Of a stretch of DNA of 64,000 bases, positions 7,006 through 29,559 are shown one piece after another. The position numbers were made by a program, and so were the translations under genes. Under the pieces are notes generated by a model that did not search any database, was not told the DNA's origin, and was given only the letters and a program-made list of their open reading frames with translations. Numbering within the stretch: the first letter of the stretch is position 1; every line of letters starts with the position of its first letter. The DNA is from Halobacteriovorax sp. GB3 (GTDB lineage Bacteria; Bdellovibrionota; Bacteriovoracia; Bacteriovoracales; Bacteriovoracaceae): assembly GCF_028649655.1 (NCBI RefSeq), contig NZ_JAQSLN010000003.1, forward strand, positions 186,001-250,000. Reading direction: 5' to 3'.

Positions 7006-7008
7006 ATT

Positions 7009-7977: not shown

Positions 7978-7990
7978 AGTGCCTCCTTAC

Positions 7991-8091
7991 GTGTGTGTCT
8001 CAAAAGTGGGTTTTAACCTAAATTTCTTTTTATTTTTGTGTGTGTTTATTTGTTAAAAAAAGGGAAGTTTTTGAATCATTCTTGTGTGTGT
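7991..8091. repeat. Three regularly spaced GT tracts upstream of nrdB
   Basis: GTGTGTGT-type tracts begin at about 7991, 8037 and 8083, i.e. every 46-47 bases. Read toward nrdB they are ACACACAC tracts. The bases between them are not repeated. Confidence 0.6.
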
Positions 8092-8178
8092 GAGGCAAAA
8101 AATTCCTTCTGTTTTTCAATAATTAAAGAGTAGCACTAGATTACAATTTTTCAAGAGTCTTGTTGAGAGAAAAAATAA

Positions 8179-8208
8179 AAGGTCTGAAACTTTATTTTTG
8201 AAGACCTT
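8179..8208. other. Hairpin AAGGTCT/AGACCTT
   Basis: Inverted repeat AAGGTCT (8179-8185) and AGACCTT (8202-8208), with a 16-base A+T-rich loop. No T-run follows, so it is more likely part of a structured leader than a terminator. Confidence 0.4.
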
Positions 8209-8222
8209 GAAATTAGGACTTT

Positions 8223-8265
8223 ACAAGCTCTAAACCCCTTTGCCAAAGGCGTTTAGGGGTCTTGT
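8223..8265. other. Long imperfect hairpin in nrdB leader region
   Basis: Nested pairs: ACAAG (8223-8227) with CTTGT (8261-8265); CTAAAC (8230-8235) with GTTTAG (8251-8256); CCTTT (8237-8241) with AAAGG (8245-8249), loop GCC. There is no immediate T-run on either strand; a T5 lies at 8271-8275 on the plus strand. It could be a leader structure of nrdBA or part of a small RNA. Confidence 0.45.
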
Positions 8266-8367
8266 CAACGTTTTTCAAATGGTCGAAAAAACATTTTATT
8301 TGTAAGCTAATTTTAGAAAAAAATTCATTGTTTTTGCTATTCGCTCCGCGTCTTTTGCAGTGTGTTT

Positions 8368-8383
8368 ACACAAGATATAGGGC
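8368..8383. promoter_or_regulatory. Possible second, degenerate NrdR box
   Basis: ACACAAGATATAGGGC matches the NrdR consensus (ACACTATATATAGTGT-like) at most left-half and centre positions but poorly on the right. NrdR sites usually come in pairs; the centre-to-centre distance to the better site at 8402-8417 is 34, slightly more than the usual 31-32. Confidence 0.35.
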
Positions 8384-8401
8384 CATGACATGTAGCGTGA
8401 G

Positions 8402-8417
8402 CCACTATATCTAGTGG
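8402..8417. promoter_or_regulatory. NrdR-box-like palindrome
   Basis: CCACTATATCTAGTGG, extended to a GCCACTA/TAGTGGC inverted repeat, closely resembles the NrdR operator. NrdR is the ATP/dATP-sensing repressor of ribonucleotide reductase genes. The site is about 425 bases upstream of nrdB and 95 bases upstream of the divergent receiver gene, so which promoter it controls is unclear. Confidence 0.5.
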
Positions 8418-8511
8418 CTAAAGACAATATTAAGACTAAACTGACATAAATCATTAATAAAAAGGCGAAAAAATCCGTAAAGATAAGCAGGCCCAAATTG
8501 AGGAGTAACCA

Positions 8512-8907
8512 ATGGCGCAATTGGATTTAATAATTGTTGATGATGATAAGTTTATGGGGAAGGTTTTTTCCTCAATGCTCAGTGGATATGAAATAAATTA
8601 TGAATTCTATTCAGACTCTACTGAGGCCCTCAGTGCTATTTTGGAGCATCGTCCAAAGTGCGTTCTACTCGATTACAATATGCCGGGAATGAACGGGCAG
8701 GATTTAATAGTAAAATTGAGTGAAAATCATATTTTCCAGCATTCAAGTATTTTTCTCATTACAGCAGATGCTTTGAGTGAAATGGATAAAATGCGAATGA
8801 TGACCCTGGGTTTTGAAAAGCTCATTGATAAGAATGTTCTTAAGAAAGAAACTTTCTTAGAGGCCATAAGCGATGTTCTCGGAGAGATTAAAAAGCTTGT
8901 GGCCTAA
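8512..8907 (+). CDS. Single-domain response regulator (CheY-like receiver)
   Basis: A 131-residue stand-alone receiver domain. The acidic pocket is VDDD (Asp10-12), the phospho-acceptor is Asp54 in LLDYNMPG, the switch Thr is 84 (LITAD) and the conserved Lys is 103 (FEKLIDK). No output domain, so it acts by protein-protein contact, e.g. in chemotaxis or a phosphorelay. No kinase is adjacent. GAGGAG precedes ATG. It is convergent with, and separated by one base from, the recombinase gene. Confidence 0.92.
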   Translation: MAQLDLIIVDDDKFMGKVFSSMLSGYEINYEFYSDSTEALSAILEHRPKCVLLDYNMPGMNGQDLIVKLSENHIFQHSSIFLITADALSEMDKMRMMTLGFEKLIDKNVLKKETFLEAISDVLGEIKKLVA

Positions 8908-8908
8908 G

Positions 8909-9862
8909 TTAGAAGTCGAGCTTTACGACAGGTGAGTCAGTGATTTTCTTTCTTCTCTTGTCGTATTCTTGAGTCGTTTTAACAGATGCGTGGTTGACTT
9001 CTTGGGCCACGGTATAAATATCAACACCTATTTCTAATAGTTCACTAATGAATGTCGCTCTTGCAGAGTGTGGACTTACTTTGAAGTTAATTCCAATTTT
9101 TTTAGCGTATTTTTGAATGATCTCATTGATCGTTTTTGGATTGAGTGGCTTGTTGAGATTCTCTGGATTGCTCGGGTTTTTAGTTGGCTGAAAGAGCCAG
9201 TCGTTGAGATCGTGCTCTCTTTCTTTGTCGATCATCCATTGTTTATATTCTTCTATGGCATTGATACAACTTGGGTGGAGTAGTTTTTGTCCAAGCTTTC
9301 CACCTTTCCCACGATATTGAATAATCTTGTTACCATCTAAGTCTTTATAGTTTTTTACGCGAAGGTTTAAGATCTCGCTCTTTCTGAGACCCGTTGTAAA
9401 AAAAGTCAAAAGAAGGGCCTTATGAAGTGGTCCTGAGTTGTTTTTACTATCAATAGCTAAAAGCATCTCTCGCACCTGTTCACCGGAGAGGGCGTTGGTA
9501 GGAGTCATGACTTCTGTACGTGGTCTTTTAACACTTGTGACAGGGTTAAAGTCACACTGTCCCTTTTCTACTAGGAAATGGAAGTAACTTGAGAGGGCCG
9601 CCAATTTTCGCCCTATCGTTTTTGGTGCACAGGGCTCGCCGTCTCGTCCACCAACTTCAGCTAGAAAGTTCCTATAGCGTATGATGTGGATGCGCTCGAT
9701 TTCTTGGTAAGACTTTAAGGGGTAGTTATCGCTGAGCCATTCTAAAAATTGCGCCATATCTCGACGATAATTATCGCGAGTATGGAGTGAGGTGAAGTTG
9801 TCGAAAAATTCATCGTACAGATGAAAGCGCTCTTGAGAGCTTTCTTTGAGTGCATGGCCCAT
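8909..9862 (-). CDS. Tyrosine recombinase (phage integrase/Xer family)
   Basis: A 317-residue recombinase with an N-terminal SAM-like core-binding domain (about 12-105) and a C-terminal catalytic domain. The full catalytic set is visible: Arg160 (TTGLRKSE), Lys186/189 (GKGGK), His265 and Arg268 (SPHSARAT), His291 (NHASVKTT) and nucleophile Tyr300. Length fits XerC/XerD, but the sequence around HSAR departs from the usual HTLRHSFA of XerD, so it may be an integrase or a lineage-specific Xer. A second recombinase starts at 63741. No att site or phage genes are seen beside it. Confidence 0.88.
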   Translation of the reverse strand: MGHALKESSQERFHLYDEFFDNFTSLHTRDNYRRDMAQFLEWLSDNYPLKSYQEIERIHIIRYRNFLAEVGGRDGEPCAPKTIGRKLAALSSYFHFLVEKGQCDFNPVTSVKRPRTEVMTPTNALSGEQVREMLLAIDSKNNSGPLHKALLLTFFTTGLRKSEILNLRVKNYKDLDGNKIIQYRGKGGKLGQKLLHPSCINAIEEYKQWMIDKEREHDLNDWLFQPTKNPSNPENLNKPLNPKTINEIIQKYAKKIGINFKVSPHSARATFISELLEIGVDIYTVAQEVNHASVKTTQEYDKRRKKITDSPVVKLDF

Positions 9863-9902
9863 ATGTTTATTATGACAGGGAGGATCGAGGCAGTGGAGGA
9901 GG

Positions 9903-9930
9903 AAAAAAGCTCCGCTAGGCTAAGCGGAGC
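9903..9930 (-). terminator. Intrinsic terminator of the desaturase gene
   Basis: Minus-strand reading: GCTCCGCT / AGCGGAGC stem (9909-9916 with 9923-9930) and a T6 run, 16 bases past the desaturase stop. Confidence 0.85.
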
Positions 9931-9946
9931 AATATTTTGGTCTATT

Positions 9947-11017
9947 TTAAGCGCATGCCGTCTTGGCGAGCGTGATCATATTGTAAAATGAGTGAGAGAG
10001 TTCTCTCATTTCACCTAAAAGTTCGTCCTTAAGTGCCCATTCGTTATTTCGACGTAGTCTTTTCTGATCTTGTAGATTCTTTTTAATTTGTTCAAAGAGT
10101 GCGTGAGCTTTTTCAATCATTGTTTGATCGAGTTCTAGTTGTTCGAGCTTTTCCATCTGAACGCGAAATTTTGCTAGTTCAATATCTTCCTCGGCAATGA
10201 CTTTGAGTCCCTTTGCTAGGTTGAACTTTGAGAGCGTATAGATGAGCCATTTCGTTGGATCGAAGTGGTACCAACGTATGCCATTTCTGTAATCTGTTTG
10301 AAATGTGTGGTGAAAGTTATGGTATCCCTCTCCGTAAGTAAAGAAGGCCATAAGCCAACTGTCTTTAGCAGAGTGTTCTAGGGAATAAGGCTGGTTTCCA
10401 ACCATATGGCAAAGGGAATTGATGAAGAAAGTGGCATGATGAACAAAGACCACTCTTGCAAGTCCAGCTATGGCAAAACCGTAGAGAAAGCTTCCAAGCA
10501 AGGCCCCGAGAAGTCCCGGGAGGATAAGGCCAAAAAAGGCACACAGTAGGAGATAGTATTTGTGTTGCCACATGATAAGGCGATCACTTGTCAGATCTTT
10601 TGGATAGAGGTTGGCGTACTTTGGATTTTCTTTTAAGAGAACCCAGCCCATGTGAGCGTAGAAGAAGCCCTCGTTGATATTGTATGGGTCTACTTCTGTA
10701 TCAACATTTCCGTGATGGCGACGGTGATCGGCAGACCACTTTAAGGCAGAATTTTGAAAAGTTGCTGCTCCAAAAATTAGGAAAAACAAACGAACAGGCC
10801 ATGATGCCTTGTAGGCCCTGTGCGAGAAGAGGCGATGGTAGCCGGCCGTGATAGAGAGACCAGTTATAAAATAATAAACGATTGCCAGTAATAGTTGTTG
10901 CCACTGAAGCCCCTCTGTTGCCAGAACATAGCCGCCAAGACCTAGGGCGAGTAGTGGTGTTGACACAAGAAATGTTGTGTTAACAGGACTTAAGTTTTTA
11001 AAATGATATCTTTCCAT
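9947..11017 (-). CDS. Membrane fatty-acid (acyl-CoA delta-9 type) desaturase
   Basis: Introduces a cis double bond into acyl chains in the membrane, using O2 and a diiron site. Three histidine boxes are present: HRLFSH (about 62-67), HRRHH (about 97-101) and EGYHNFHH (about 229-236), with four hydrophobic segments around them, as in stearoyl-CoA desaturases. The 356 residues end in a roughly 85-residue charged, helical extension (ELAKFRVQMEKLEQLELD and onward) that the basic bacterial enzyme lacks. Single gene with its own terminator; the electron donor is not encoded nearby. Confidence 0.93.
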   Translation of the reverse strand: MERYHFKNLSPVNTTFLVSTPLLALGLGGYVLATEGLQWQQLLLAIVYYFITGLSITAGYHRLFSHRAYKASWPVRLFFLIFGAATFQNSALKWSADHRRHHGNVDTEVDPYNINEGFFYAHMGWVLLKENPKYANLYPKDLTSDRLIMWQHKYYLLLCAFFGLILPGLLGALLGSFLYGFAIAGLARVVFVHHATFFINSLCHMVGNQPYSLEHSAKDSWLMAFFTYGEGYHNFHHTFQTDYRNGIRWYHFDPTKWLIYTLSKFNLAKGLKVIAEEDIELAKFRVQMEKLEQLELDQTMIEKAHALFEQIKKNLQDQKRLRRNNEWALKDELLGEMRELSHSFYNMITLAKTACA

Positions 11018-16435: not shown

Positions 16436-17639
16436 GACTCTACTTCTTATTTTCCTAGGTCTAAGCTTCAATTGTTTCGCTAATGATCTTATGAAAACGC
16501 TCTTTGATAAAGAGGGGTTTCGCGTTCGTTATAATACGGAAGATAGACTTTATATCGTTGAAAAAGATGGAAAAATTGAGCGCTATCCAAGACATCTTGC
16601 AAGTCGACTGCTCTTTAGGCACCAGTTTGATACAACACTTGAGACCTATGAAGAATTTAAAAAAATTCTAAATAATCACAATAAAATCTTAAACCTTGTT
16701 GAACCCACTGATGAAGAATTGATTGCAGAGGCCTTTGATTTTAAAGATACGGCCATGCGCTATTTGAGTGAAGCAAAAAATCCTTGTGATTATAAGACAA
16801 GACAATATGGAAAAGGTGATCTTTTAAACTTAAAACTTGAAAATACTTCACCTCTTAATGATGCCATGAATTCTTTGGCCGAGATGTTAACGATGAAAGA
16901 AGATGGTTATGCCTCTGTAAAGAAAACGTTTAAAGATAAAATGAATATCATTACTGATGAAAATGGTGAAGCGACTGTGATTAAATTTGGTGGTGGTCAG
17001 TATAAGACAGTTATTGAATCCGTTGGTGGTGAGAATAAGCGCACAAGACAGACTGTTGAAATAGACGGCGCGAAGTTTGAAATTAGACTCTCTGAAGATA
17101 AAGATGACTTCTATATCAAAGTTGTCGGTAAAGAAGGGGTTAATAATCAATATGGAGCGATCGCTAAAAAAGCGGCCAGCGCAATTACAGATGAAGTTTC
17201 CAGTGAGTCGGTGGATGATTTAGAATTTGCAACAGAAGTTAACTTTGGTAATCGATTTCATATATATCGAGATCATAATTCTTCTTTTACTTCAAATATC
17301 TCTCTTGGAAGAGAGTTTGGTGTCTATGGAACAAGCTCTGGCTATGTACGTATGAAGGGGGACCTTCGCTATAAGTATGTCGATCGCCACATTGATGGTA
17401 AAGATGTCTCATCATTTGAAGTGGCCTTGTTTTACGATAAAATTGACTACGATGCCGGTGGTAGTACGACTCCGCGAGGAATCGAATTTGTACGTCGATA
17501 TCGTGTAAATGATAAGACAGACCTTTTTATATCTGCTTCACACAGTAAGGTGGCCCCTTTAACAAAGGCCGATGAGGATCACCGCGAAGAGCTCGTATGG
17601 GACGAGATGATCTTTATTGGAATTGAGTCAAAATTCTAA
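16425..17639 (+). CDS. Secreted, probably outer-membrane beta-rich protein; apparent non-standard ATC start
   Basis: The first ATG is at 16491, but the same frame is open upstream to 16410 and encodes a textbook signal peptide just before it (GKTLLLIFLGLSFNCFA, then NDLMKTLF). There is no ATG, GTG or TTG in that stretch. A strong GGGGGAGGG ribosome site at 16410-16418 sits 6 bases before ATC 16425, which overlaps the end of the previous gene, so initiation at ATC by translational coupling is my preferred reading. The protein then resembles the upstream one: charged N-terminal part, beta-rich second half (FATEVNFGNRFHIY, FEVALFYDKIDYDAG) and terminal ESKF. If the ATG at 16491 is used, the export signal is lost. 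Confidence 0.6.
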   Translation: MVGKTLLLIFLGLSFNCFANDLMKTLFDKEGFRVRYNTEDRLYIVEKDGKIERYPRHLASRLLFRHQFDTTLETYEEFKKILNNHNKILNLVEPTDEELIAEAFDFKDTAMRYLSEAKNPCDYKTRQYGKGDLLNLKLENTSPLNDAMNSLAEMLTMKEDGYASVKKTFKDKMNIITDENGEATVIKFGGGQYKTVIESVGGENKRTRQTVEIDGAKFEIRLSEDKDDFYIKVVGKEGVNNQYGAIAKKAASAITDEVSSESVDDLEFATEVNFGNRFHIYRDHNSSFTSNISLGREFGVYGTSSGYVRMKGDLRYKYVDRHIDGKDVSSFEVALFYDKIDYDAGGSTTPRGIEFVRRYRVNDKTDLFISASHSKVAPLTKADEDHREELVWDEMIFIGIESKF

Positions 17640-18841
17640 ACGAGCCAGTCAGTGCTTGTTTTTATCGGTCTTGGCGTCATGAGATCCCCATTGTAAAGGA
17701 CAACTTCTGCTGGTAGATTGTGGCATAGAAAGAAAGGCATTGCCTCTGTAAAGCCATAAGCTCCCGTTTGAGAGAAGACAAGCCAATCACCTTCATTGAT
17801 ATCATTTGGCAGTTGAAAAGTTCCAAGTTTATCGATGGCCGTACAAAGTGGACCGTGCACTTGAAAAGAACTTTTTTCGGCATCAGAATCACGAAACATC
17901 TCACAAGGAAAGTCCTGATCTACTAAGGCCGGACGAGCAATATGGTTAATCCCACCATCAGTGACAAGAATCTCTTTTCCACGAACCGTTTTTCTATCGA
18001 TAACTTGAGTTAGATAGTGGCCACAAGTTCCTACGGCGTAGCGACCAAGTTCCATCCAAACCTTTTTCAACCCGTGTTTTTCTTTGATTTTTGTGAGCGT
18101 GACACTGACATCTTTAAAATCGAGAGGGGAGTCACCTTTTTCATAGCAGATTCCAAGGCCTCCACCAAGATCTAAGATATTGAGTGGAATTTTCATTGTC
18201 TTAGCAAGTTCAACCATTTCTTTTGAAATTTTATCCCAGATGGTCTCAAGCCTACTAAGATCGAGAATATTTCCCCACTGAAAGACATGGAACCCTTGAA
18301 AATCGAGATTTTTAGTTTTTTCAAAATCTAGCTTTAGCCACTCTTTTTGATCGAGACCAAAAGGAGTAATGGCATCTCCACCTAGAACAGAGGAACCTTC
18401 ATCCCAATCCAGTTGTACGCGAAGAAGTACCTTTGGTCTCGCTCCTAGTTCTCCAGCGATTTCACTAAGCCAATAGGCCTGATTGAGTGATTCTAAGACG
18501 ACGACATTAACTTCATTATTAATCATGGAGCGAAGATAATTTCTCGCTTTTGATGGACCAGTTGAAAGGATGTCCTCTGGCTCAACTCCTGCTTGCAGAA
18601 CTTGGTTAAGTTCTCCTTGGGAGGCGACATCGATTCCAAAGTTGAGGTTTCGAAATATTTTTAAAATAGAAGACAAAGGATTGGCCTTACAAGCATACCA
18701 AAGTTTTACATCTGGATCTTTCACGCTATCCATATAAGTGAGGCGTGATTTGAGATGATCGAGATCGTAGAAGAAGAAACTAGAATCTAGTCTTTTAATC
18801 ACGCGCTCAAGTCTCTTTTTATGCTCAATTGTAAGGGCCAT
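17636..18841 (-). CDS. lysA: Fold-III PLP decarboxylase, diaminopimelate decarboxylase by context
   Basis: By position this is the last enzyme of lysine synthesis, decarboxylating meso-diaminopimelate. The 401 residues have the PLP Lys in YACKANP (about residue 52), the glycine-rich phosphate loop LGGGLG, and the C-terminal TGAYGF. Two features differ from ordinary LysA: the motif usually CESGD reads HGPLCTAID, without the Glu that contacts the far end of diaminopimelate, and the EPGR loop reads ELGRYAVG. Both recall the decarboxylases linked to exosortase systems. The gene is the fifth of lysC-dapB-dapA-dapD-lysA, 27 bases after dapD, which supports the lysine role. Substrate identity is therefore inferred from context more than from motifs. 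Confidence 0.75.
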   Translation of the reverse strand: MALTIEHKKRLERVIKRLDSSFFFYDLDHLKSRLTYMDSVKDPDVKLWYACKANPLSSILKIFRNLNFGIDVASQGELNQVLQAGVEPEDILSTGPSKARNYLRSMINNEVNVVVLESLNQAYWLSEIAGELGARPKVLLRVQLDWDEGSSVLGGDAITPFGLDQKEWLKLDFEKTKNLDFQGFHVFQWGNILDLSRLETIWDKISKEMVELAKTMKIPLNILDLGGGLGICYEKGDSPLDFKDVSVTLTKIKEKHGLKKVWMELGRYAVGTCGHYLTQVIDRKTVRGKEILVTDGGINHIARPALVDQDFPCEMFRDSDAEKSSFQVHGPLCTAIDKLGTFQLPNDINEGDWLVFSQTGAYGFTEAMPFFLCHNLPAEVVLYNGDLMTPRPIKTSTDWLV

Positions 18842-18868
18842 GCCTTTGTCCTTTCTCGTAATTAGAAT

Positions 18869-19633
18869 CTATCTAAGAAATTCTTCTAGCTCTAGTGATT
18901 CGTTTGATTTTTCGTCTCTATATTTTACGATCATCGCACAATTCATTGTAAGCCCCATCTCTTTTGCCCATCCAAGCTTGTCATTGACAGGACGAGAACC
19001 AGGGACAACGATAGCATTTTCAGGAATTGGCTCACCAACTTCTAATTTTCTCTCGTTTACACAGTCATAAACAGGAACACCTTTAGAAAGAATAACACCA
19101 GGAGCAATAACGGCTCCTTTTAAAACTTGAATTCCTTCAACGATAACGGCACCTGCACCAATGAAAGCATTATCTTCAATAATAACTGGAGCAAGACCTA
19201 CGGGCTCAAGAACTCCACCAATTTGAACACCGGCCGAAAGGTGAACGTTTTTACCAATCTGCGCGCACGAACCTACAAGAGCGTGTGAATCGACCATTGT
19301 TCCCTCGTCAACATAGGCGCCAATATTGATATAGGCCGGAGGCATGATGATAACTCCGCTTGAAACATAAGCTCCACGACGAACGCTTGATCCACCTGGA
19401 ACGAGGCGAACACCATCATTTGGTGTAAAGTTTCTTGGGGCCATATTGTGCTTGTCTACAAAACCAGGGTAGTGATTATCACCCATATCAACATTTGTTC
19501 CATCTTTGAAAGCTGCAAGAATAGCTTTTTTAGCATCAACATTTGCAACCCATTTTCCATCGACTTTATTAGCGGCACGAACTTCGCCTTTTTCCATAAG
19601 ATCGAGAACTTCTTTCCAATTTAAATCACTCAT
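18869..19633 (-). CDS. dapD: Tetrahydrodipicolinate N-succinyltransferase
   Basis: Transfers succinyl from succinyl-CoA to tetrahydrodipicolinate in the succinylase branch of diaminopimelate synthesis. The left-handed beta-helix hexapeptide repeats run from about residue 85 to 200, with NIGAYVDEGTMVDSHALVGS, CAQIGKNVHLS and GGVLEPVG closely matching Escherichia coli DapD. The C-terminal NCAMIVKYRDEKS and ELEEFLR also match. At 254 residues it is slightly short at the N-terminus. Fourth gene of the lysine operon, 14 bases after dapA. The later succinylase-branch genes dapC and dapE are not in the window. Confidence 0.93.
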   Translation of the reverse strand: MSDLNWKEVLDLMEKGEVRAANKVDGKWVANVDAKKAILAAFKDGTNVDMGDNHYPGFVDKHNMAPRNFTPNDGVRLVPGGSSVRRGAYVSSGVIIMPPAYINIGAYVDEGTMVDSHALVGSCAQIGKNVHLSAGVQIGGVLEPVGLAPVIIEDNAFIGAGAVIVEGIQVLKGAVIAPGVILSKGVPVYDCVNERKLEVGEPIPENAIVVPGSRPVNDKLGWAKEMGLTMNCAMIVKYRDEKSNESLELEEFLR

Positions 19634-19647
19634 TTTTATTCCTTTTG

Positions 19648-20529
19648 TTACATTAAGTTTTTATACCAATTTCTAATTTGCTCACTCGCCTTTAGGAGAG
19701 GCTCAACTGATTGAAGATCACGAGCATCGAGAGGTGAGCGCATTGTATTTGTTTTAATCGTTTTCTCACTGGCCATTAGGGCCTTCACTGGAACTGGGTT
19801 TGAAGCCAGAAAAAGTGTGTTTGAACAATCACTCCAAAGAGCGGCTTCTTTTAAAGTTCCATCTAGGCATTTTTTGACAAAGAGATTCGTCTCTTTTGGC
19901 CATGCATTTGATGCTACTGAAACAAGTCCAGAAGCTCCAAGCGGTGAAAAGTCAGGAAGAAGGGCATCATCACCTGAATAAACCATGGTCTTAGGGGCCG
20001 CTTCAACGTAGCTTTTAAATTTTTCAACTGAACCTGAGGCCTCTTTAATTGCCCATAAATTTTTATGATCATTTAATCTTTTAACGGCATTGATATTAAG
20101 CTCTCCACCAGTTCTTCCCGGAACATTGTAGAGCATAACTGGCTTTGTCGATGCATCCATGAGAGTTTTAAACCACTCATACTGACCATGTTCACCTGGT
20201 TTAGCATAAAGTGGGCTTACCATTAGGTAGGCATCAAGTTTTAATGTTTCAAGGTATTGAACCCATTTTAACGTGCTTTTAAGGTTGATTCCACCGACAC
20301 CACACATGAGTGGGGCCTTCAAATTCAGTGAGAGGGCAAAGTCTAAAATCTTTTTTGACTCGTCCTCATCGAGGTTAAGGGCCTCTCCTGTTGAACCTAA
20401 AATAAGAATTCCATTTCCCGCTTGCTCTTGCTCGCGAAGAACTTTTTCATATGAATCATAATCAATTGTTTGATCTTCATTCATTGGACTAATAACCGCT
20501 GTCCATAGGGCGTAGTCTTTTACATTCAT
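19648..20529 (-). CDS. dapA: 4-hydroxy-tetrahydrodipicolinate synthase
   Basis: Condenses pyruvate with aspartate semialdehyde. A 293-residue TIM barrel with the expected motifs: GSTGEALNLDEDE (substrate carboxylate loop), MLYNVPGRTG (catalytic Tyr) and IKEASGSVEK (Schiff-base Lys). Third gene of the lysine operon, 13 bases upstream of the next enzyme region. Part of the committed step of the pathway, normally feedback-inhibited by lysine in proteobacteria. Confidence 0.96.
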   Translation of the reverse strand: MNVKDYALWTAVISPMNEDQTIDYDSYEKVLREQEQAGNGILILGSTGEALNLDEDESKKILDFALSLNLKAPLMCGVGGINLKSTLKWVQYLETLKLDAYLMVSPLYAKPGEHGQYEWFKTLMDASTKPVMLYNVPGRTGGELNINAVKRLNDHKNLWAIKEASGSVEKFKSYVEAAPKTMVYSGDDALLPDFSPLGASGLVSVASNAWPKETNLFVKKCLDGTLKEAALWSDCSNTLFLASNPVPVKALMASEKTIKTNTMRSPLDARDLQSVEPLLKASEQIRNWYKNLM

Positions 20530-20542
20530 TCGTTATCCTTGG

Positions 20543-21208
20543 TTAACTTAAAAGTTCTTTTAGTGTTATTTCTTGAAAGTCATAGAGTCCAACTTCTAGC
20601 TCTAGGACTTTCTTTGTGGCCCAAAGGGCACCTTCGGCGAAAATCTTTCTATCGAGGGCCTCGTGGCGAAGTGTGATCTTTTCTGTTTGAGTTTCAAAGG
20701 TGAGAGTGTGATCTCCAACGACATCTCCAATTCGATCGGAGGTAATCTCAAAATCTTCACCAGTCCAATCTCTCCATGTGATTGCTGTTCCCGATGGAGC
20801 GTCAAGCTTCTTTGTATGGTGGACTTCATGAATATTAAATGAGTAATCAGAAAAAAGTTTATGAGCATTACTCATTGTTTTAATCATTTGTTGAACGAGA
20901 TTCATTCCTAGCGAAAAATTGGTCGCATAAACCCATGGTGCCTTAAGATCATTTTTAAAATCTTCTTCCCAAGAAAATCCTGTTGAGCCAGTAACTACGG
21001 GGATTCCTGAGCTTTTTAAAGTTTCACGATACTCTAAAAATGCATCACCTGGCAAAAAGGAGAGAATCACATCATGTCCTTTAAGAGAATCGATCGTGAT
21101 AGGGGTTTTTGAATCAAAGATACTAACTTCTATTGGAAGAGATTTTTGTTCAATGAGTTCTATGACTTTAGATCCCGTTTTTCCTTTACCTAAGAGGGCG
21201 AGTTTCAT
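20543..21208 (-). CDS. dapB: 4-hydroxy-tetrahydrodipicolinate reductase
   Basis: Reduces the DapA product with NAD(P)H. The N-terminus carries the nucleotide loop ALLGKGKTGSKV, and the catalytic/substrate motif is EVHHTKKLDAPSGTAI (His-His and Lys pair). At 221 residues it is about 50 shorter than the E. coli enzyme, a compact form also known from other phyla; the missing part lies in the nucleotide-binding domain between strands. The gene overlaps the lysC stop by 4 bases, so translation is coupled. Confidence 0.93.
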   Translation of the reverse strand: MKLALLGKGKTGSKVIELIEQKSLPIEVSIFDSKTPITIDSLKGHDVILSFLPGDAFLEYRETLKSSGIPVVTGSTGFSWEEDFKNDLKAPWVYATNFSLGMNLVQQMIKTMSNAHKLFSDYSFNIHEVHHTKKLDAPSGTAITWRDWTGEDFEITSDRIGDVVGDHTLTFETQTEKITLRHEALDRKIFAEGALWATKKVLELEVGLYDFQEITLKELLS

Positions 21209-22557
21209 GCGATAAATTCCTTGTGTAGCTTTTCAATACATTCACTGGCCTTGTCATTGGCAACGAGAAAGCAGAAATTATGCTTACTAGCGCCAAGACA
21301 GATCATTCGCACATTAATATCGCCAAGAGCGTTAAAGATACGAGCGGCAAGACCTGGTGTGTGGTTAATATTATTACCGATTAGAGACACAAGGGAAAGT
21401 TCCCCTTCGATTTTTACTTCTCCAAGAGCACTGAGCTCTTCGAAAAGTGTTTTATTGAGTAGCGTCGAATCATCGACAGTAAGGGAAACGGAAATTTCAG
21501 ATGTGGTAATGGAATCGACACTAACGCGGTGGTTATTAAAAATTTTAAAAATCTCAAATAAGAATCCATGAGTGTGAAGCATCTTTGGCGTCGAAAGAGT
21601 AATGAGACTTTGAGCCTCTCTTTTTGCCATAGCGCGAATGAGTGGGGCTTCACTCGTGGATTTCTTTATCCATGTTCCAGGCGCATCGGGCTCATAGCTA
21701 GAGCCGACGAAGACTTGAACATTGGCGCGAAGGGCCGGTGTAAGTGTTGTCGGATGGAGGATCTTCGCGCCAAATGTTGCAAGTTCAGCTGCTTCTTGAA
21801 AAGTGATCTCGCCAAGAAGTTTTGCTTCTTTAACTATTCTGGGATCAGTCGTCGCAATACCTGCAACGTCAGTCCAAATTTGTAATGTCCTTGCTCTTAA
21901 TCCCTCAGCAAGTAGAGCCGCTGAATAATCAGAGCCGCCGCGTCCAAGAGTTGTGGTTTCACCATCTTTTGTAGAGCCGATAAAACCTTGTGTGACAAAG
22001 ATGACATCATTTGAGATCTCACCAAGGTGAAGATCACATAATTCTTTAATCTCATCAATTTGGGCACTCGCTCTATTGAAGCGATCATCGGTTCTAAGAA
22101 CTTTTCGAACATCGAGTAGTCTAACATCTTTATTCTCGCTATGGACTTCCTTCATTGCATAAGTAAAGAGAAGTGAGCTCATTCTCTCTCCAAGGGATTG
22201 AAGTCCATCAAAGGCCTTTGGAGTGAGATCGCGAAGCAGGCTTACGCCCTTAGAGAGCGTTTCCAGTTCATTATAAAGAGTTTCTAGTTGCTCTCTAACA
22301 GATTCATAGCAATTTAAATCAGAGGCAATATCATTGTGTTTCGTTTTAATTTTTTCAATAAGCTCAGCACACTCGTCCCACTGGCCTTTAGAGGCAAGGT
22401 TTGAAATTTGAATGAGCTGGTTTGTGGTTCCATAGGTTGCTGAGACAACGACGAGATTGGCCTTTTGGTCAAAGCTCACCTTTGCGCTTCTTCTCATACA
22501 AGTTGCATCGGCCATAGATGAGCCACCAAATTTAGCGACAATTAAATCATTAGACAT
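21205..22557 (-). CDS. lysC: Aspartate kinase
   Basis: Phosphorylates aspartate at the head of the lysine/threonine/methionine pathways. The N-terminus has VAKFGGSSMADA; the kinase domain continues with GRGGSDYSAALLAEGL and the DVAGIATTDPR region. Two ACT domains follow (about 300-450), ending in LGASKHNFCFLV, so allosteric control by amino acids is expected. An in-frame TTG at 22575 exists, but ATG 22557 has AGGGAG at the right distance, and that ribosome site is the one a lysine riboswitch appears to mask. First gene of the operon. Confidence 0.95.
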   Translation of the reverse strand: MSNDLIVAKFGGSSMADATCMRRSAKVSFDQKANLVVVSATYGTTNQLIQISNLASKGQWDECAELIEKIKTKHNDIASDLNCYESVREQLETLYNELETLSKGVSLLRDLTPKAFDGLQSLGERMSSLLFTYAMKEVHSENKDVRLLDVRKVLRTDDRFNRASAQIDEIKELCDLHLGEISNDVIFVTQGFIGSTKDGETTTLGRGGSDYSAALLAEGLRARTLQIWTDVAGIATTDPRIVKEAKLLGEITFQEAAELATFGAKILHPTTLTPALRANVQVFVGSSYEPDAPGTWIKKSTSEAPLIRAMAKREAQSLITLSTPKMLHTHGFLFEIFKIFNNHRVSVDSITTSEISVSLTVDDSTLLNKTLFEELSALGEVKIEGELSLVSLIGNNINHTPGLAARIFNALGDINVRMICLGASKHNFCFLVANDKASECIEKLHKEFIA

Positions 22558-22562
22558 ATGGA

Positions 22563-22610
22563 TCTCCCTTTTCAATTAGAAAACAATTTTATTTGTCCAT
22601 GAATGGGAGA
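22563..22610 (-). promoter_or_regulatory. Predicted RBS-sequestering stem of the lysC leader
   Basis: On the minus strand TCTCCC (plus 22605-22610) is complementary to GGGAGA (plus 22563-22568), which is the lysC ribosome site. No T-run follows the aptamer before the start codon, so control of translation rather than termination is likely. Pairing is by eye and not energy-tested. Confidence 0.55.
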
Positions 22611-22650
22611 GGTTTTTTTGAGGCGTAAGCTTAATTAAAGCTTATTTGAT

Positions 22651-22822
22651 GACCCCCAAAGTTCTCCACATGTTCATGTGACAGTCCTAGGGATTCAGCC
22701 CTAGTAACCAACAAATTTTCTTTCAGTGTAGAAAACCGTTTCGGCATCTTCTCCCGTTACTTGAAATCATTGATTCACTGAAATCTTAATCAAGCTATCT
22801 GAAAGATGCACCTCTTTGGTCT
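22651..22822 (-). ncRNA. Lysine riboswitch (L box) aptamer
   Basis: Read on the minus strand, the leader of lysC contains the L-box core: AGAGGTGC (near 22808-22815), AAGTAACGGGAG, AAGATGCCGAAA (22739-22750 region), a hairpin ending TTGTTGGTTAC, and GACTGTCA (22679-22686). The closing P1 helix is GACCAAAG (22814-22821) with CTTTGG...GTC (22651-22661). Order, spacing and the invariant words match the lysine riboswitch family. A promoter lies immediately upstream and lysC downstream. Confidence 0.92.
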
Positions 22823-22826
22823 GATT

Positions 22827-22855
22827 ATGATAAGAGAAACAGGGGTGCTTGACAA
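22827..22855 (-). promoter_or_regulatory. Promoter of the lysine operon
   Basis: Minus strand: -35 TTGTCA (22855-22850), 17-base spacer, -10 TATCAT (22832-22827). Transcription would start about 5-8 bases on, right at the riboswitch P1 helix, which supports the call. The -35 overlaps a plus-strand TTGACA (CTTGACAAG palindrome). Confidence 0.7.
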
Positions 22856-22906
22856 GGACGAAACTCTGAATCACCCTAGTTTCAGATCATTTTTATAGGA
22901 GATCGA

Positions 22907-24016
22907 ATGAAAAAAGTTGGTATTATTGGATGGCGTGGGATGGTTGGTTCCGTGCTCATGGAGCGAATGAGGGCCGAAAAGGACTTCGATGTCATCGATC
23001 CTTATTTTTTTACAACGTCACAAGCTGGTCAATTAGGACCGAAGGTGAATGGAAAACAAGGTCCATTAAAAGACGCTAAAAATCTTTCTGACTTACAAGA
23101 AATGGATATTATCATCTCTTGCCAAGGGGGAGATTATACAAAGTCCGTTTACGCTGATTTGAGATCTTCTGGTTGGCAAGGTTATTGGATTGATGCTGCC
23201 TCGACTTTAAGAATGAACGAAGATGCGCTGATTGTTTTAGATCCTGTAAATAAGGCGGTTATGGAGCGAGGAATTGATCGCGGAATTAAAACCTTTGCAG
23301 GTGGAAATTGCACAGTTTCATTGCAGCTCATGGCCATTGGATCTCTCTTTGAAAATAATCTTGTCGAATGGGTAAGTAGCATGACTTATCAGGCCGCCTC
23401 TGGTGGAGGGGCAAGACATATGAGAGAGCTCATTAAGCAATTTGAAATCTTAGGACTCTCAGTCAAAGATTTAAATGATAACCCAGCTTCAAATATTCAC
23501 GAAATAGAAAGCAAAGTAACAGAGCTTTTACGTACGAAAAACTTACCAACGGATCAATTTGGAGTACCACTAGCAGGATCACTCATTCCATGGATCGATT
23601 CACAATTAGATAACGGTCAATCGCGCGAAGAGTGGAAAGGCATGAGCGAGACAAATAAAATCCTAGGACTTGATAAAGCTTCTGAGATTCCAGTCGATGG
23701 AACTTGTGTTCGTATCGGGGCCCTTCGCTGTCACTCGCAGGCCTTTACTATTAAGCTCAAAGAAAAAGTAGATATCAAAAGGGTAGAAGAGCTCATTGCC
23801 AATTACACTGAATGGACTGAGTTTGTTCCTAACGATAAAGAAATCACTATGGAAAAATTAACTCCTAGTTATGTGACAGGAACGATGAAAATTCCTGTGG
23901 GGAGAGTTCGCAAGATGAATCTTGGCGATGATTTTCTCAATGTCTTTACCGTTGGTGATCAACTTCTTTGGGGAGCTGCTGAGCCTCTTCGAAGAACAAT
24001 GAGAATGTTATTATAA
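22907..24016 (+). CDS. asd: Aspartate-semialdehyde dehydrogenase
   Basis: Reduces aspartyl phosphate, the LysC product, to the semialdehyde. The 369-residue protein is the gamma-proteobacterial type: N-terminal [17 protein letters not shown] nucleotide loop, catalytic Cys in [13 protein letters not shown] (about residue 134), [11 protein letters not shown] and the C-terminal [24 protein letters not shown] gives a good ribosome site. Divergent from the lysine operon and sharing its 331-base control region, but the riboswitch is on the other strand, so lysine does not control asd through it. It ends in a strong terminator. Confidence 0.96.
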
Positions 24017-24019
24017 AAA

Positions 24020-24050
24020 ATGAGGGCCAAATTTATGGCCCTTTTTTTTT
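24020..24050 (+). terminator. Intrinsic terminator of asd
   Basis: GGGCC / GGCCC stem (24024-24028 with 24037-24041), loop AAATTTAT, then a run of nine T that touches the stop codon of the convergent gene. Confidence 0.85.
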
Positions 24051-24777
24051 ATTGAAGTGATCCTCGCTCCATAGCGAAGCTTTCTTTTTTCTGATTCATG
24101 GCCTGTTCAAACAGAACATCTCCCTTGGCGATGGCATCGCTAACCATGTCAGAATAAAGCTTGGCAGTAACTTCAATTGCATATTTTACTTCTTCTAAAT
24201 CATCTGTCGTTTGTACTAATTCTCTAATATATCCTTGCATCATCTTGATATGTCCTTGATCAATTGTATGGTGATCAAAGATAAAACTCATGGCCTCTTT
24301 TGAGACACCAACTTTTTCAAGGGCCTCCATATAGTCTTTACCAAAATGCGTCGGCATATATTCGAGGTGAAAAAGATAACCTAAATAACCAACAGGATTT
24401 CTAAATTGAATTTGGTAAAAGGCATAAGATAAAAGCGCTGTCGTCGAATTTGATGGCCTTGAACTTGGAATGTGCTCAGTTTCAAAACCTAATGCTTTCA
24501 TATCATTAAGAGCAAGTTGGTCGTGACCAATCTCACTAATAGCGTGACGATAGAACGGTTTAATTTGAGTTCTTTGATGACCTCTAAAGAAAGCCGTAGC
24601 AAAGGTTTGAATCTGAGGATTTTCACGCGTGTGGTGAAAAATTTGCTCTAAAATACAAGCATAGTGAATTGATGTGATTTCTTTATTTAATATTCTACTG
24701 AAGCCCTTTGAAGTATTAACCTCTTTCATGACTTCTTCCCAGTGACTGTAGATCTTATTGAACATTGAATTTTCCAT
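24049..24777 (-). CDS. Haem-oxygenase-like diiron oxidase (HDO) family protein
   Basis: A 242-residue all-helical protein of the iron-containing redox enzyme group that includes UndA, CADD and BesC. All six ligands of the family are in place: Glu82 and His85 (SEIGH, the ExxH helix), Glu139 (FHLEYM), and His169, Asp173, His176 (HxxxDxxH in DHHTIDQGHIKM). UndA turns fatty acids into terminal alkenes and CADD makes p-aminobenzoate, so the chemistry varies; here the partner gene suggests an acylated substrate. The start overlaps the end of the upstream acyltransferase by 23 bases, so they are translated together. Specific function unknown. Confidence 0.8.
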   Translation of the reverse strand: MENSMFNKIYSHWEEVMKEVNTSKGFSRILNKEITSIHYACILEQIFHHTRENPQIQTFATAFFRGHQRTQIKPFYRHAISEIGHDQLALNDMKALGFETEHIPSSRPSNSTTALLSYAFYQIQFRNPVGYLGYLFHLEYMPTHFGKDYMEALEKVGVSKEAMSFIFDHHTIDQGHIKMMQGYIRELVQTTDDLEEVKYAIEVTAKLYSDMVSDAIAKGDVLFEQAMNQKKESFAMERGSLQ

Positions 24778-25471
24778 TAATCTGCTCCTTAGTGTTTTGA
24801 TGATTGAATATGTTGATTGATTGAATGTCTTGGTATTCTTTTAGAATTTTAAAAAACGGAGAACGAATCGATTGCAGATAACGTTCATTAAAATTTTCTA
24901 AAAGCATGATGTGTATATTTCCAAATTCAGGATGATTAGCATCTCTGGTTTTTACAAAGCCATACTTGCTGAAAAAGCTAAGTATCGGATCGTTACAATC
25001 GAGTAAGCTATGTGTGATCTTCTCATGTAGAGAGTAACGATAAACTTCATTCATTAGCTTTAAAGTCGTCGAGAGCACTCGAGATTTCTTGTCTGTTATG
25101 ATTTTACTTGTGTAGCAGCAGTTGTTTTGACTTAAGTGATTAATGAAACTGTAGTTGAAAAGATCTTCATAGGGATAGTCTTGACCTTTTTCTAGTTTAT
25201 TTAGTCTTACAGTGCCAATCATTTTATTGTCTTTAAACACACCAAGAATATAAGGATTAAGATGATCCCATTCGTCGATGATCATTTTTCTTTCATGATC
25301 GACATGCTTAAGGCCTTGTCTATCCATTTGCTCGATATAGACAAAATAGCGAAAGCGAAAAACGGTTTCTAATTCTTCTTTCGATTGCATTAAGTAGACC
25401 TCGTTATCTTTGTAATAACTCTGTGGCTTACTTGTTAAGTGATCGTCGTTTGAGTTGATTAATACTGACAA
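24755..25471 (-). CDS. GNAT-fold N-acyltransferase, FeeM/LuxI-like
   Basis: A 238-residue protein starting at TTG behind GGGAGG. The sequence FRFRYFVYIEQMDR (about 38-51), DEWDHLNPYILGVF (about 66-79) and MIGTVRLNKL (about 84-93) follows the layout of N-acyl amino acid synthases (FeeM) and acyl-homoserine-lactone synthases: RxRYxVY helix, D-WD, then a G-x-RL strand. Such enzymes move an acyl group from acyl-ACP to an amino group. A later YSLHE...CNDPILSFFSKYGF is the C-terminal GNAT core. It forms an operon with the diiron oxidase. It has no LuxR partner in the window, so a quorum-sensing role is not supported. Confidence 0.7.
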   Translation of the reverse strand: MSVLINSNDDHLTSKPQSYYKDNEVYLMQSKEELETVFRFRYFVYIEQMDRQGLKHVDHERKMIIDEWDHLNPYILGVFKDNKMIGTVRLNKLEKGQDYPYEDLFNYSFINHLSQNNCCYTSKIITDKKSRVLSTTLKLMNEVYRYSLHEKITHSLLDCNDPILSFFSKYGFVKTRDANHPEFGNIHIMLLENFNERYLQSIRSPFFKILKEYQDIQSINIFNHQNTKEQINGKFNVQ

Positions 25472-25707
25472 AAGAGCCTCCCTCTTAAAATTTCACTTAA
25501 AAAAATAAGCAGGGAAATTTTCAATGGCCATGAAACGCAGGCCATAAGTGTTCCTTGAAAATAAGGAGCAATTTATCTCAAGAAAAATTGATCTAGCTCT
25601 CTTGTGGCCGATATTATTGGTAGCATTTCCTTAGAAACAAGGGGTTAAAGTATTGATATTTTATTTACGATAGGTAGATGAGTGAAACCTGTTTGATAAT
25701 GGTATTT

Positions 25708-26418
25708 ATGAAAATCTTAATCCCTTTTCTTTTTATCCTGTCTTTTTCTACTTTGGCCTTAAGGGCCACTGAGGATTTAAGATTTCAAGATGAGCAGCTA
25801 AAAGAGATAGAAGTATTTGCCAATTGCCAAAAGAAAGTTCAAACGCTAAATCCATCTTTAAAAGAACTCTATTCTTTCTATTCTAAATTTTACGATCGTG
25901 TTGAAAAGTATGAAGAAAAGCTTCTTGCTGACAATAAAATTTCCTACGATAAAATCGTCACACTCAAAGTAAAAAAACTCGCTCTTCAAAAAAAGCTCAT
26001 GCACTTGCAAAGTTTAAAAAAATACGTGGCCCCTTCAAGAAATCCCCTGGATAAGTATGGCGCGAGACGTCCGGCCTATGATGTCGACGAAGGTGGCGAC
26101 GATGATCGCATTGCGGGCAATCGTTATAGAAAAGTTGGTCCGCAAGATAAGTACGGAGCAAGACGCCCGGCCTATGATCTCGATGAAGGTGGAGACGATG
26201 ATCGCATTGCGGGCAATCGTTATAGAAAAGTTAGTCCGCAAGATAAGTACGGCGCGAGACGCCCAGCTTATGATGTTGATGAAGGCGGAGATGATGATCG
26301 AAGAGCTCCAGCAAGTGAAGGAGGCCTTATACTTGCTTCAAACAGAGGGTATGTGGACCCATTAACTCTTGGAATTCCCCTTCATGAACAAGAGCAAATA
26401 AAACTTCTTTTTCGCTAA
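25708..26418 (+). CDS. Secreted protein with 32-residue acidic tandem repeats
   Basis: I prefer ATG 25708 (MKILIPFLFILSFSTLA, a standard signal peptide) over the in-frame ATG at 25678, which would add an acidic leader. After a helical, Lys-rich region (about 25-110) come two full and one partial copies of a 32-residue unit, starting DKYGARRPAYDVDEGGDDDR and continuing IAGNRYRKV(G/S)PQ. The repeats mix an Arg patch with a GGDDDR acidic patch and could bind metal, polyanions or a cell-surface partner. The DNA copies differ at only a few, mostly third-position bases, so the array is recent. No family recognised. Confidence 0.65.
   Translation: MKILIPFLFILSFSTLALRATEDLRFQDEQLKEIEVFANCQKKVQTLNPSLKELYSFYSKFYDRVEKYEEKLLADNKISYDKIVTLKVKKLALQKKLMHLQSLKKYVAPSRNPLDKYGARRPAYDVDEGGDDDRIAGNRYRKVGPQDKYGARRPAYDLDEGGDDDRIAGNRYRKVSPQDKYGARRPAYDVDEGGDDDRRAPASEGGLILASNRGYVDPLTLGIPLHEQEQIKLLFR
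26050..26302 (+). repeat. 96-base in-frame tandem repeat, 2.6 copies
   Basis: Units begin at 26050, 26146 and 26242 with GATAAGTA(T/C)GG; the third stops after about 60 bases. Each unit encodes 32 residues of the secreted protein at 25708-26418. Confidence 0.95.
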
Positions 26419-26438: not shown

Positions 26439-27329
26439 CTATCCTGGTGCTGACTTAATTAAATGTTCATTATGATAGTCCATATAAATATTTAAATGCT
26501 CCTCTAATTTCTTCGGGTCTTTTGTCGTACACCAAGACTTTCTTACAAGTCTATTAATAGAGTATCGAAGCATGGCGTAAGTATGATTCAAAGAAAAAAG
26601 AGGGTCAAACTTTAGTCGTTTTAGCTCTCCTTGCCCCACGACACAACCTCTTCCACCTTTATATTGTTTATGAATTGCCTGTGGAAAATTTAAAGAAATT
26701 GCCTTTGGATATAGAGGGTGCTCATCTGTTTCAAAAATGACATCTTTGGTTACGATAGGCTTTAATTTAAAAAGCATTTCATTTAATTTTTTAAAATGTT
26801 CGCTTTTACGCTTTCCATATTTCTTTCGAGATTTCTCTGCGAGGTGTCCAAATGCAGGAATTCTAGCGACTTCTATCGCAAGGATTCTCCTTGTTAAAGG
26901 ACATACCGCGATTGAAGCACTTAAAGGTTTTAGTTTTGTATGCTCAATTGTTATCAAGTCATCAAACTGAACTTTGGAAAGAGGATTCTTTTCTAACTGT
27001 TTGAGTCGCTTTTCTTGTCTTTTCTTTGCTTTTTTCGAGTGAAACTCAATTTTTCTCTCTACCGTTTTTCTCGAAGTTTTCAGCAAGAGCGCAATTCTTC
27101 TAATTGAAGTATTTGAACAATAGTGTTTGTAAACATCGTTATTAAGCCGTCTTTTATTTTGATGTTTTGCTAGTGAAAATGTCGCTGAAGAAAACCTCGT
27201 CTTACAAATCTTACATTTGTATCGCTGAATAATTCGAGAATCGGAGGATCTTTTGAATGTTCCATCCTTAACGATGAAAGTGCGTTTTTTGTGATAATTA
27301 CAGTTTTGATTGGGGCAGCCGTGTTTCAT
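26439..27329 (-). CDS. Transposase-like protein with N-terminal zinc ribbon
   Basis: A 296-residue protein. The start has a zinc-binding pattern CPNQNC...CKIC (about residues 5-43), followed by a helix-turn-helix-like NTSIRRIALLLKTSRKTV (about 73-90) and a basic helix. The second half has Asp-rich strands (VQFDDLITIE, VIFETDEHPLYP) and NHTYAMLRYSINRLVRKSW with a late EEHLNIY, which fits a DDE-type nuclease related to IS1/IS1595-group transposases. The exact catalytic triad is a guess. No convincing terminal repeats or target duplication flank it, so it may be a decayed or domesticated element. Confidence 0.65.
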   Translation of the reverse strand: MKHGCPNQNCNYHKKRTFIVKDGTFKRSSDSRIIQRYKCKICKTRFSSATFSLAKHQNKRRLNNDVYKHYCSNTSIRRIALLLKTSRKTVERKIEFHSKKAKKRQEKRLKQLEKNPLSKVQFDDLITIEHTKLKPLSASIAVCPLTRRILAIEVARIPAFGHLAEKSRKKYGKRKSEHFKKLNEMLFKLKPIVTKDVIFETDEHPLYPKAISLNFPQAIHKQYKGGRGCVVGQGELKRLKFDPLFSLNHTYAMLRYSINRLVRKSWCTTKDPKKLEEHLNIYMDYHNEHLIKSAPG

Positions 27330-28224: not shown

Positions 28225-29559
28225 TTACTCAGATTTTTGAAAGGCCAATTTGAAAGTACTACCAGTTGGGCCAATATTTTCATTTTCGTTTGTTTCAACG
28301 TCTATATCTGCCCCGTAGAGATCGAGGTAGAATTTTACGATTGGCATACCAAAGCCCGTTCCTTTTTCGCCACCTGTTCCAGAACGAGATGTCGTGACAT
28401 CGTGGCGAAAGAGATTTTTCAAAATCTCATGAGGAATTCCAATTCCGTAATCTTTAATTTCAAGCTTGATTTGCTCGTCTTCTTCCTTAAAGTTGAACTC
28501 GATATCAGCACCCTTTGGTGAGAACTTGATGGCATTTGTTAGGATGTTTGTTATGACGCTGTTTTTGAGAGAAGTTCTCTCTGATTTTACAAAGTAGTGC
28601 TCTTTATCTTGCGCTATTTTGACTTGAATTTGCTTTTGTGTGGCGAGGTCTTGGTGATTTGTGAGGGCCTCTTGAACGACTTCTAGAAGATCCACTTTTT
28701 CAATGGCCACTTCCAATTTTCCATTTTCAAAGGCCTGCAAAGAACGAACTGAATGGATTAATTGCTCCATATTCAAAGTGATTTCACCCATCTTTGAAAA
28801 GAGGTCCTTCTTTTGATCTTCACTCATTTTCTCATATTTGCGATCTATTTTAAAAAGACTCATCTTCATGGCAAATAGTGGATTTGTTAAGTCGTGCGAT
28901 AGAACAGCTAAAAGAGAGCGATTTTTCTCATTGAGTTTAAAGAGTTCTAATCGTTGTTGATCCGAAGTGATGATGGCCTCATTTTTTTGCTTAACAAAGA
29001 CCCTTGAGACAAAATAAAAAGTAACAAAACAAAAGACGATGGACACACTATCAAAAACGTAGATTTCTTCTCTTGAAAAGACATCGGGTATAACCGTATA
29101 GGCCTTAGGAAAGAGATAGGCCGCGAGCATGAGAAGCGAGACAATAATCCCCGTAAAAAATCCTAGAAACTCTCCAAGCAGCATAACACCAAAAATAGAA
29201 AAACATGGCATCCACATGAGATTTGTAAAAAGAAGCTCCGGAGCATAAAGCTGCTGGAATGAAAGAAGCATGCCTAGAGTTAAGATAAAGAGAATTGCTG
29301 AACGAGAATATTGACCGTCTCTTTTGTAGGAAAAGAGGTTGATCGTAAAGATGGCGACACTAACAATTTGAGCAATAGCAACGCGGTGATTTTCATTAAC
29401 AATATTTAGGAGAAAAAAGACTAAAAGGACTATGGAAGCAATGATTTGACTGGCCGAAAGAATGGCATAATTGGATCTTTCTAAGACATCACTTGATTGT
29501 TTCGCCGAGTCCGGAGAAAACCAATGCGCGAGAGCTCTTATGGAGTCAGTTATCTTCAT
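28225..29559 (-). CDS. Membrane sensor histidine kinase
   Basis: A 444-residue kinase. Residues about 35-195 hold six hydrophobic segments with almost no periplasmic loops, so it probably senses within the membrane. The dimerisation box is LLAVLSHDLTNPLFAMK (His about 222), the N box TNILTNAIKFSPKG, G1 IKDYGIGIPHE and G2 GTGFGMPIVKFY. No response regulator is adjacent; the next gene downstream is the TIGR02147 regulator. Signal unknown. Confidence 0.92.
   Translation of the reverse strand: MKITDSIRALAHWFSPDSAKQSSDVLERSNYAILSASQIIASIVLLVFFLLNIVNENHRVAIAQIVSVAIFTINLFSYKRDGQYSRSAILFILTLGMLLSFQQLYAPELLFTNLMWMPCFSIFGVMLLGEFLGFFTGIIVSLLMLAAYLFPKAYTVIPDVFSREEIYVFDSVSIVFCFVTFYFVSRVFVKQKNEAIITSDQQRLELFKLNEKNRSLLAVLSHDLTNPLFAMKMSLFKIDRKYEKMSEDQKKDLFSKMGEITLNMEQLIHSVRSLQAFENGKLEVAIEKVDLLEVVQEALTNHQDLATQKQIQVKIAQDKEHYFVKSERTSLKNSVITNILTNAIKFSPKGADIEFNFKEEDEQIKLEIKDYGIGIPHEILKNLFRHDVTTSRSGTGGEKGTGFGMPIVKFYLDLYGADIDVETNENENIGPTGSTFKLAFQKSE

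Follow-up and report, generated by a model that had tools for sequence, protein, structure and literature searches.

Two overlapping genes lie on the reverse strand of the window, that is, the whole 64,000-nucleotide stretch of Halobacteriovorax sp. GB3 DNA that was analysed. They encode a predicted acyltransferase of the FeeM/LuxI fold (ACT) and a predicted haem-oxygenase-like dimetal oxidase (HDO; Table 1). The coordinates of both reading frames and the length of their overlap agreed exactly with the first-pass annotation. Initiation at an alternative in-frame ATG of the HDO gene, four codons further in, would reduce the overlap to 11 bases; the position of the ribosome-binding-like AGGAG element favours the first ATG. 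The corresponding pair of a congener (genome G074, loci L055/L075) also overlaps, by 14 bases. Given the overlap, the two genes are probably translated together.

Table 1. Features of the ACT-HDO locus and its flank, with positions in the window.
Feature	Position	Strand	Evidence
ACT, FeeM/LuxI-fold acyltransferase (predicted), 238 aa, TTG start	24755..25471	-	ORF, PF21926, fold model
HDO, haem-oxygenase-like dimetal oxidase (predicted), 242 aa, ATG start	24049..24777	-	ORF, PF14518, fold model
Overlap of ACT 3' end and HDO 5' start, 23 bases	24755..24777	-	ORF coordinates
AGGAG, ribosome-binding-like, in the last coding part of ACT, 7 nt upstream of the HDO start codon	24784..24790	-	sequence
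GGGAGG, ribosome-binding-like, upstream of the ACT TTG start	25475..25485	-	sequence
Terminator-like hairpin, bidirectional, between HDO and convergent asd	24022..24043	.	detected on both strands
asd (aspartate-semialdehyde dehydrogenase), convergent flank, outside the module	22907..24016	+	TIGR01745, E 1.8e-178

Terminator-like sites were more frequent in the region than expected (6 versus 1.0), and the bidirectional hairpin downstream of HDO suggests that the ACT-HDO unit is closed against asd. Together with the convergent asd, the genes lysA-dapD-dapA-dapB-lysC form a compact lysine/DAP block (17636-24016), which is syntenic around the pair in the congener. The products of asd, lysC, dapB and dapA were considered as suppliers of a substrate (lysine, or homoserine via aspartate semialdehyde) and dropped. 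The lysine/DAP genes were not assigned to the module because they adjoin the pair in two congeners only, asd is on the opposite strand and a terminator lies between. On the other side, a secreted-looking protein is encoded at 25678-26418, with a tandem repeat in 26050-26300 consisting of 2.6 copies of a 96-base (32-residue) unit, DKYGARRPAYDVDEGGDDDRIAGNRYRKVSPQ; in the congener, the gene for a relative of this protein (34% identity over 90 aa) is likewise divergent from ACT. An IS1-like transposase gene also adjoins the pair (26439-27329, - strand), and a 41% identical relative is found close to HDO in another lineage (L063:5476-6402). A histidine kinase gene at 28225-29559 is not claimed as a sensor partner, as the transposase gene and two others intervene.

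The HDO protein scored well above the curated cut-off of PF14518, Haem_oxygenas_2 (E 2.6e-15; 57.1 bits, cut-off 28.9). Its AlphaFold model (mean pLDDT 95.1) has the predicted haem-oxygenase-like fold and was matched by Foldseek to 3DDE (TM 0.79), CADD (0.75) and UndA (0.70), and also to TenA and BesC. The six metal ligands listed in the first-pass annotation (E82, H85, E139, H169, D173 and H176) were numbered correctly and are invariant in 26 aligned sequences. A set of three histidines and three carboxylates defines most HDOs (PMC13108848). Profile match, model and ligand conservation thus bear out the earlier family assignment and support an intact 3-His/3-carboxylate HDO in the window.

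The closest solved relative is 3DDE, an uncharacterised protein of Shewanella denitrificans (Sden_3740; profile E 5e-35), with which all six ligand positions are identical at an overall identity of 24%. Next by sequence, at a distance, is the mangotoxin acetylenase MboA. UndA, BesC, CADD, MboA and others have the ligand set and the fold in common with the window HDO, the identity of characterised HDOs to it being very low (profile E 6e-13 for MboA and 6e-5 for BesC); the CADD subfamily model TIGR04305 gave 17.1 bits at a cut-off of 200. The superfamily is estimated at more than 10,000 members, of which about a dozen have been characterised, most of them with fatty or amino acids as substrates (PMC13108848). 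The literature examined reports no partner acyltransferase for UndA, BesC, CADD, MboA or other characterised HDOs. Two Bdellovibrionota members of the HDO subfamily (L057:7561-8322 and L058:7714-8457) have lost several metal ligands and are possible pseudoenzymes; the second still adjoins a highly diverged ACT, the first has none nearby.

ACT matched PF21926, FeeM (E 1.2e-10; 41.8 bits, cut-off 27). The best Foldseek matches of its AlphaFold model (pLDDT 85.8) were the acyl-homoserine lactone (AHL) synthases BjaI and LasI; FeeM (2G0B) was matched with a TM (by target) of 0.73-0.77 and E 1.8e-8 to 8e-8. A phmmer search with the single ACT sequence against the PDB gave no match, the relatives having come from profile and fold searches. 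These matches assign ACT to the FeeM/LuxI type, as had been proposed, rather than to an unrelated GNAT family, and the motifs quoted earlier are present, with R41-Y42-x2-Y45, D66-x2-D69 and R89 invariant in 20 aligned sequences. Two more specific assignments were rejected on their scores, namely a genuine LuxI synthase (PF00765; 18.7 bits, cut-off 24) and a PEP-CTERM/exosortase-associated acyltransferase (TIGR03694; 32.8 bits, cut-off 111.95); the model for the ornithine acyltransferase OlsB (NF052554) gave 21.2 bits at a cut-off of 350.

In a tree of 47 ACT domains, two groups were separated by a long, fully supported branch. The Glu of the E-x-S-R motif, whose column was identified by aligning ACT with group I and LuxI-family sequences, is kept in all 13 members of group I; most of this group has an N-terminal PilZ domain, which is present in the members adjoining this HDO subfamily. 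The window ACT, which has no regulatory domain, belongs to group II, where this Glu is absent from 34 of 34 members (the window residues are C-Y-T-S-K) and Asp-x-Asn is nearly always present on the next strand (D158-x-N160 in the window). In N-acyl amino acid synthases this Glu is catalytic, and the exchange Glu103Ala abolished the phenotypes of Nas354 (PMC4897644). The earlier reading of ACT as an ordinary FeeM-type acyl-ACP:amino-acid transferase is therefore supported as to fold and motifs but not beyond them, the catalytic Glu being absent. As far as sequence and model can tell, the window ACT follows the FeeM/LuxI plan and fails one defining feature of the family, which makes ACTs of this type unusual within a well-studied mechanism. 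With the catalytic Glu lost, acceptor and mechanism may differ from those of FeeM; Asp158, on the strand after the Glu-less one, might serve as general base. The HDO tree was less resolved than the ACT tree. HDOs with PilZ-type partners formed a moderately supported subclade (84/96), which makes replacement of the ACT partner likely. Two anciently diverged ACT groups serve one HDO subfamily.

The genomic distribution of the pair was determined with HDO alone as bait in the phylum, in GTDB contigs, and in Gammaproteobacteria, Parvularculaceae and Alphaproteobacteria. The edge of the HDO subfamily is sharp, with members above 250 bits and the next sequence at 167. In line with the adjacency anticipated by the first-pass annotation, an ACT gene was located within 153 bp of HDO in 39 of 41 distinct members. 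At locus L098, ACT is one gene away, a single cyclase gene lying between; at L057, no ACT is near the ligand-deficient HDO paralogue, and the same genome has a second, complete pair (L056). ACT is present beside HDO at both L078 and L097. The annotation had viewed the association within Bdellovibrionota; most of the copies recovered were in the alphaproteobacterial Parvularculaceae, and others in Rhodospirillales and Gammaproteobacteria. ACT was found up- or downstream of HDO and on the same or the opposite strand; in many loci of Alphaproteobacteria the two genes share a strand and HDO comes first. Among 62 Parvularculaceae genomes, the same 22 contain both genes and 40 contain neither, and in each of the 22 the two matches share a contig and are separated by no more than 131 bp. 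The probability of such co-occurrence by chance, 1/C(62,22) = 3e-17, would hold for independent genomes only; the genomes here are related, and this kinship inflates the significance. As to the chance background, PF21926 gave only two matches at E<=1e-3 in the 3.6 Mb genome from which the window was taken. The variety of arrangements argues that the association is selected and not merely a matter of co-transcription, and without a functional link it would be difficult to account for identical presence and absence despite rearrangement of the genes. ACT and HDO are a near-obligatory, functionally linked pair.

In relatives of the window species, the pair is repeatedly connected with second-messenger elements. 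Nine PilZ-ACTs have RxxxR near the N-terminus, eight of them with [D/E]-x-[S/T/N]-x2-G about 30 residues further on. Four HDO-adjoining ACTs carry a C-terminal cyclic-nucleotide-binding (CNB) domain, detected by Pfam in L083, L116 and L112 and by motif in L167, and the canonical phosphate-binding cassette is kept in three of these four fusions. Genes combining GAF with a class-III cyclase are found beside the pair in Bdellovibrionota and Oligoflexales, and at the Parvularculaceae loci HDO and a histidine-kinase gene are divergently arranged. Next to the pair in the window species, no cyclase, PilZ or CNB element or histidine kinase was found. That ACT recurs together with cyclic-(di)nucleotide domains, with cyclases or with a histidine kinase suggests that product formation is switched by signalling, and the PilZ- and CNB-ACT fusions point to a lipid product under second-messenger control.

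Such a connection between lipid and second messenger was hinted at by only one earlier report that we found, on Nas343 and Nas354 (PMC4897644). These proteins share with the window ACT the fold, the PF21926 match and the RxxY/DxxD/R-N layout, and Nas354 carries a PilZ domain, as do relatives of the window ACT. The PilZ-like domain is C-terminal in Nas343 and Nas354, whereas it is N-terminal in the HDO-linked ACTs; the window group further differs from the Nas proteins in the lack of the catalytic Glu, in its own Asp-x-Asn strand motif and in being paired with an HDO gene. The search of the open-access literature thus recovered an N-acyl amino acid synthase joined with PilZ and none joined with a heme oxygenase-like protein, in agreement with the earlier statement that no characterised pair of this kind was known. 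The nearest functional parallel is provided by the tyz, thalassotalic, kyonggic and stieleriacine clusters, where an N-acyl amino acid synthase is combined with an O2-dependent oxidase whose substrate is the N-acyl amino acid, the two frames sometimes overlapping (PMC12479983). The thalassotalic, kyonggic and tyrazolone clusters comprise an N-acyl tyrosine synthase and a nitroreductase-family desaturase (PMC12479983). In tyz-type clusters the oxidase belongs to the nitroreductase family and has a ThiF partner; the oxidase of the present module is an HDO, and ThiF was not seen. Despite their fold similarity to ACT, the AHL synthases LuxI, BjaI and LasI are set apart by the PF00765 cut-off, which ACT misses, by the catalytic Glu, which ACT lacks, and by LuxR, which was not seen with ACT.

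Our preferred explanation, to which we assign a probability of about 0.5, is a two-enzyme lipid-modification pathway in which ACT makes an N-acyl amine or N-acyl amino acid and HDO oxidises it. ACT would take an acyl chain from a thioester of ACP or CoA and attach it to the amino group of an amino acid or other small amine, and the diiron HDO would then use O2 to desaturate, cleave or hydroxylate the N-acyl product; we infer the donor and the acceptor of the acyl chain, the sequence of the two reactions and the product. An N-acyl amino acid unites the two kinds of compound on which most characterised HDOs act, fatty acids and amino acids (PMC13108848), which fits an HDO acting on such a product. 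Further support comes from the parallel with N-acyl amino acid synthases whose partner is an O2-dependent desaturase with a different fold (PMC12479983), and from L057, the lone clade member with no ACT nearby, which has lost diiron ligands. HDO substrates can rarely be guessed, hence the value of a partner ACT: where a whole HDO subfamily has its own acyltransferase, the substrate is to be sought among a limited number of N-acyl compounds that can be tested. More tentatively, the pathway may be gated by second messengers, with c-di-GMP acting through PilZ and cAMP/cGMP through CNB and cyclase partners, and may employ a relocated catalytic Asp; its HDO may carry out, on an N-acyl lipid, a reaction so far not known from HDOs, to yield an undescribed class of membrane lipid or of signal made from an oxidised lipoamino acid.

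The loss of the FeeM catalytic Glu from the window group counts against the preferred explanation, as does the lack of a cyclase, PilZ or CNB element next to the pair in the window species. The linkage of the two genes is equally compatible with a reverse order of steps or with an ACT that acylates a protein. In the former case, HDO would convert a free amino or fatty acid to an unusual amine or acyl unit, which ACT would then use for N-acylation. This corresponds to what most characterised HDOs do, e.g. BesC, HrmI, AetD and UndA (PMC13108848), gene order is not fixed and has HDO first in the alphaproteobacterial loci mentioned, and an unusual acceptor could account for the missing FeeM Glu; the leading position of ACT in the window transcript is weak evidence the other way, and we regard HDO acting first as rather unlikely though a serious competitor. 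Mycobacterial Pat enzymes are cAMP-gated CNB-GNAT proteins that modify other proteins, and the four CNB-ACT fusions beside HDOs invite the comparison. ACT could accordingly be a cyclic-nucleotide-controlled acyltransferase modifying HDO or another protein, and CADD illustrates that a protein of the HDO fold can be its own substrate (PMC13108848). The NCBIfam Pat model indeed matches L083, but over the CNB domain only; the ACT catalytic domain is FeeM/LuxI-like and not Pat-like by sequence and fold, and most ACT copies have no CNB domain, so that protein acylation appears very unlikely.

An autoinducer-like role, with the pair making a diffusible acyl signal sensed by the adjoining histidine kinase or GAF-cyclase, seems improbable. 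It is suggested by AHL synthases being the nearest solved folds of ACT, by the divergent histidine-kinase gene in Parvularculaceae and by the GAF-cyclase beside HDO in Bdellovibrionota and Oligoflexales. However, ACT missed the LuxI cut-off, no LuxR-type gene was seen, the window species has no neighbouring sensor, and regulatory domains on ACT itself suggest that signalling controls synthesis rather than that the product is sensed. The notion that adjacency is an accident of shared ancestry, as synteny of the surrounding block within the genus of the window species might suggest, is contradicted by varied arrangements in several classes, by matching presence and absence and by the different ACT types, and can practically be dismissed.

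The pairing has a wider setting among more distant HDOs. In other members of the family to which the window species belongs, the gene for such an HDO overlaps or directly adjoins one for a divergent FeeM-like protein (HHalign probability to ACT 98.8%). This third, more divergent FeeM-like type occurs beside distant HDOs, again with an overlap of 23 bases at L070. Cluster-5 proteins beside more distant Bdellovibrionota HDOs were rejected as acyltransferases (no profile match; HHalign 3%). The recurrence of FeeM-like and of AMP-ligase/HDO/short-chain dehydrogenase clusters suggests that the broad HDO branch is associated with acyl-handling enzymes.

HDOs resembling 3DDE (L117-L143) were present in about 35 of 369 gammaproteobacterial genomes, mostly in a conserved and apparently uncharacterised cluster with genes for an AMP-ligase, a short-chain dehydrogenase and a TPR protein and without ACT. 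The L070 cluster (6698-10618) encodes the FeeM-like protein, the distant HDO, a hexapeptide acyltransferase, a ferritin-like oxidase and a fatty-acid-desaturase-like protein; loci L035, L036, L071, L069 and L074 resemble it, the desaturase-like protein having been noted in L070. In two further Bdellovibrionota loci (L043:6270-7904 and L051:1192-2826), HDO is fused behind an FkbM methyltransferase domain. A fatty-acid-desaturase-like and then a FeeM-like gene follow the fusion, a ferritin-like oxidase gene lies on the other strand, and the whole is predicted to be a larger lipid-modifying cluster.
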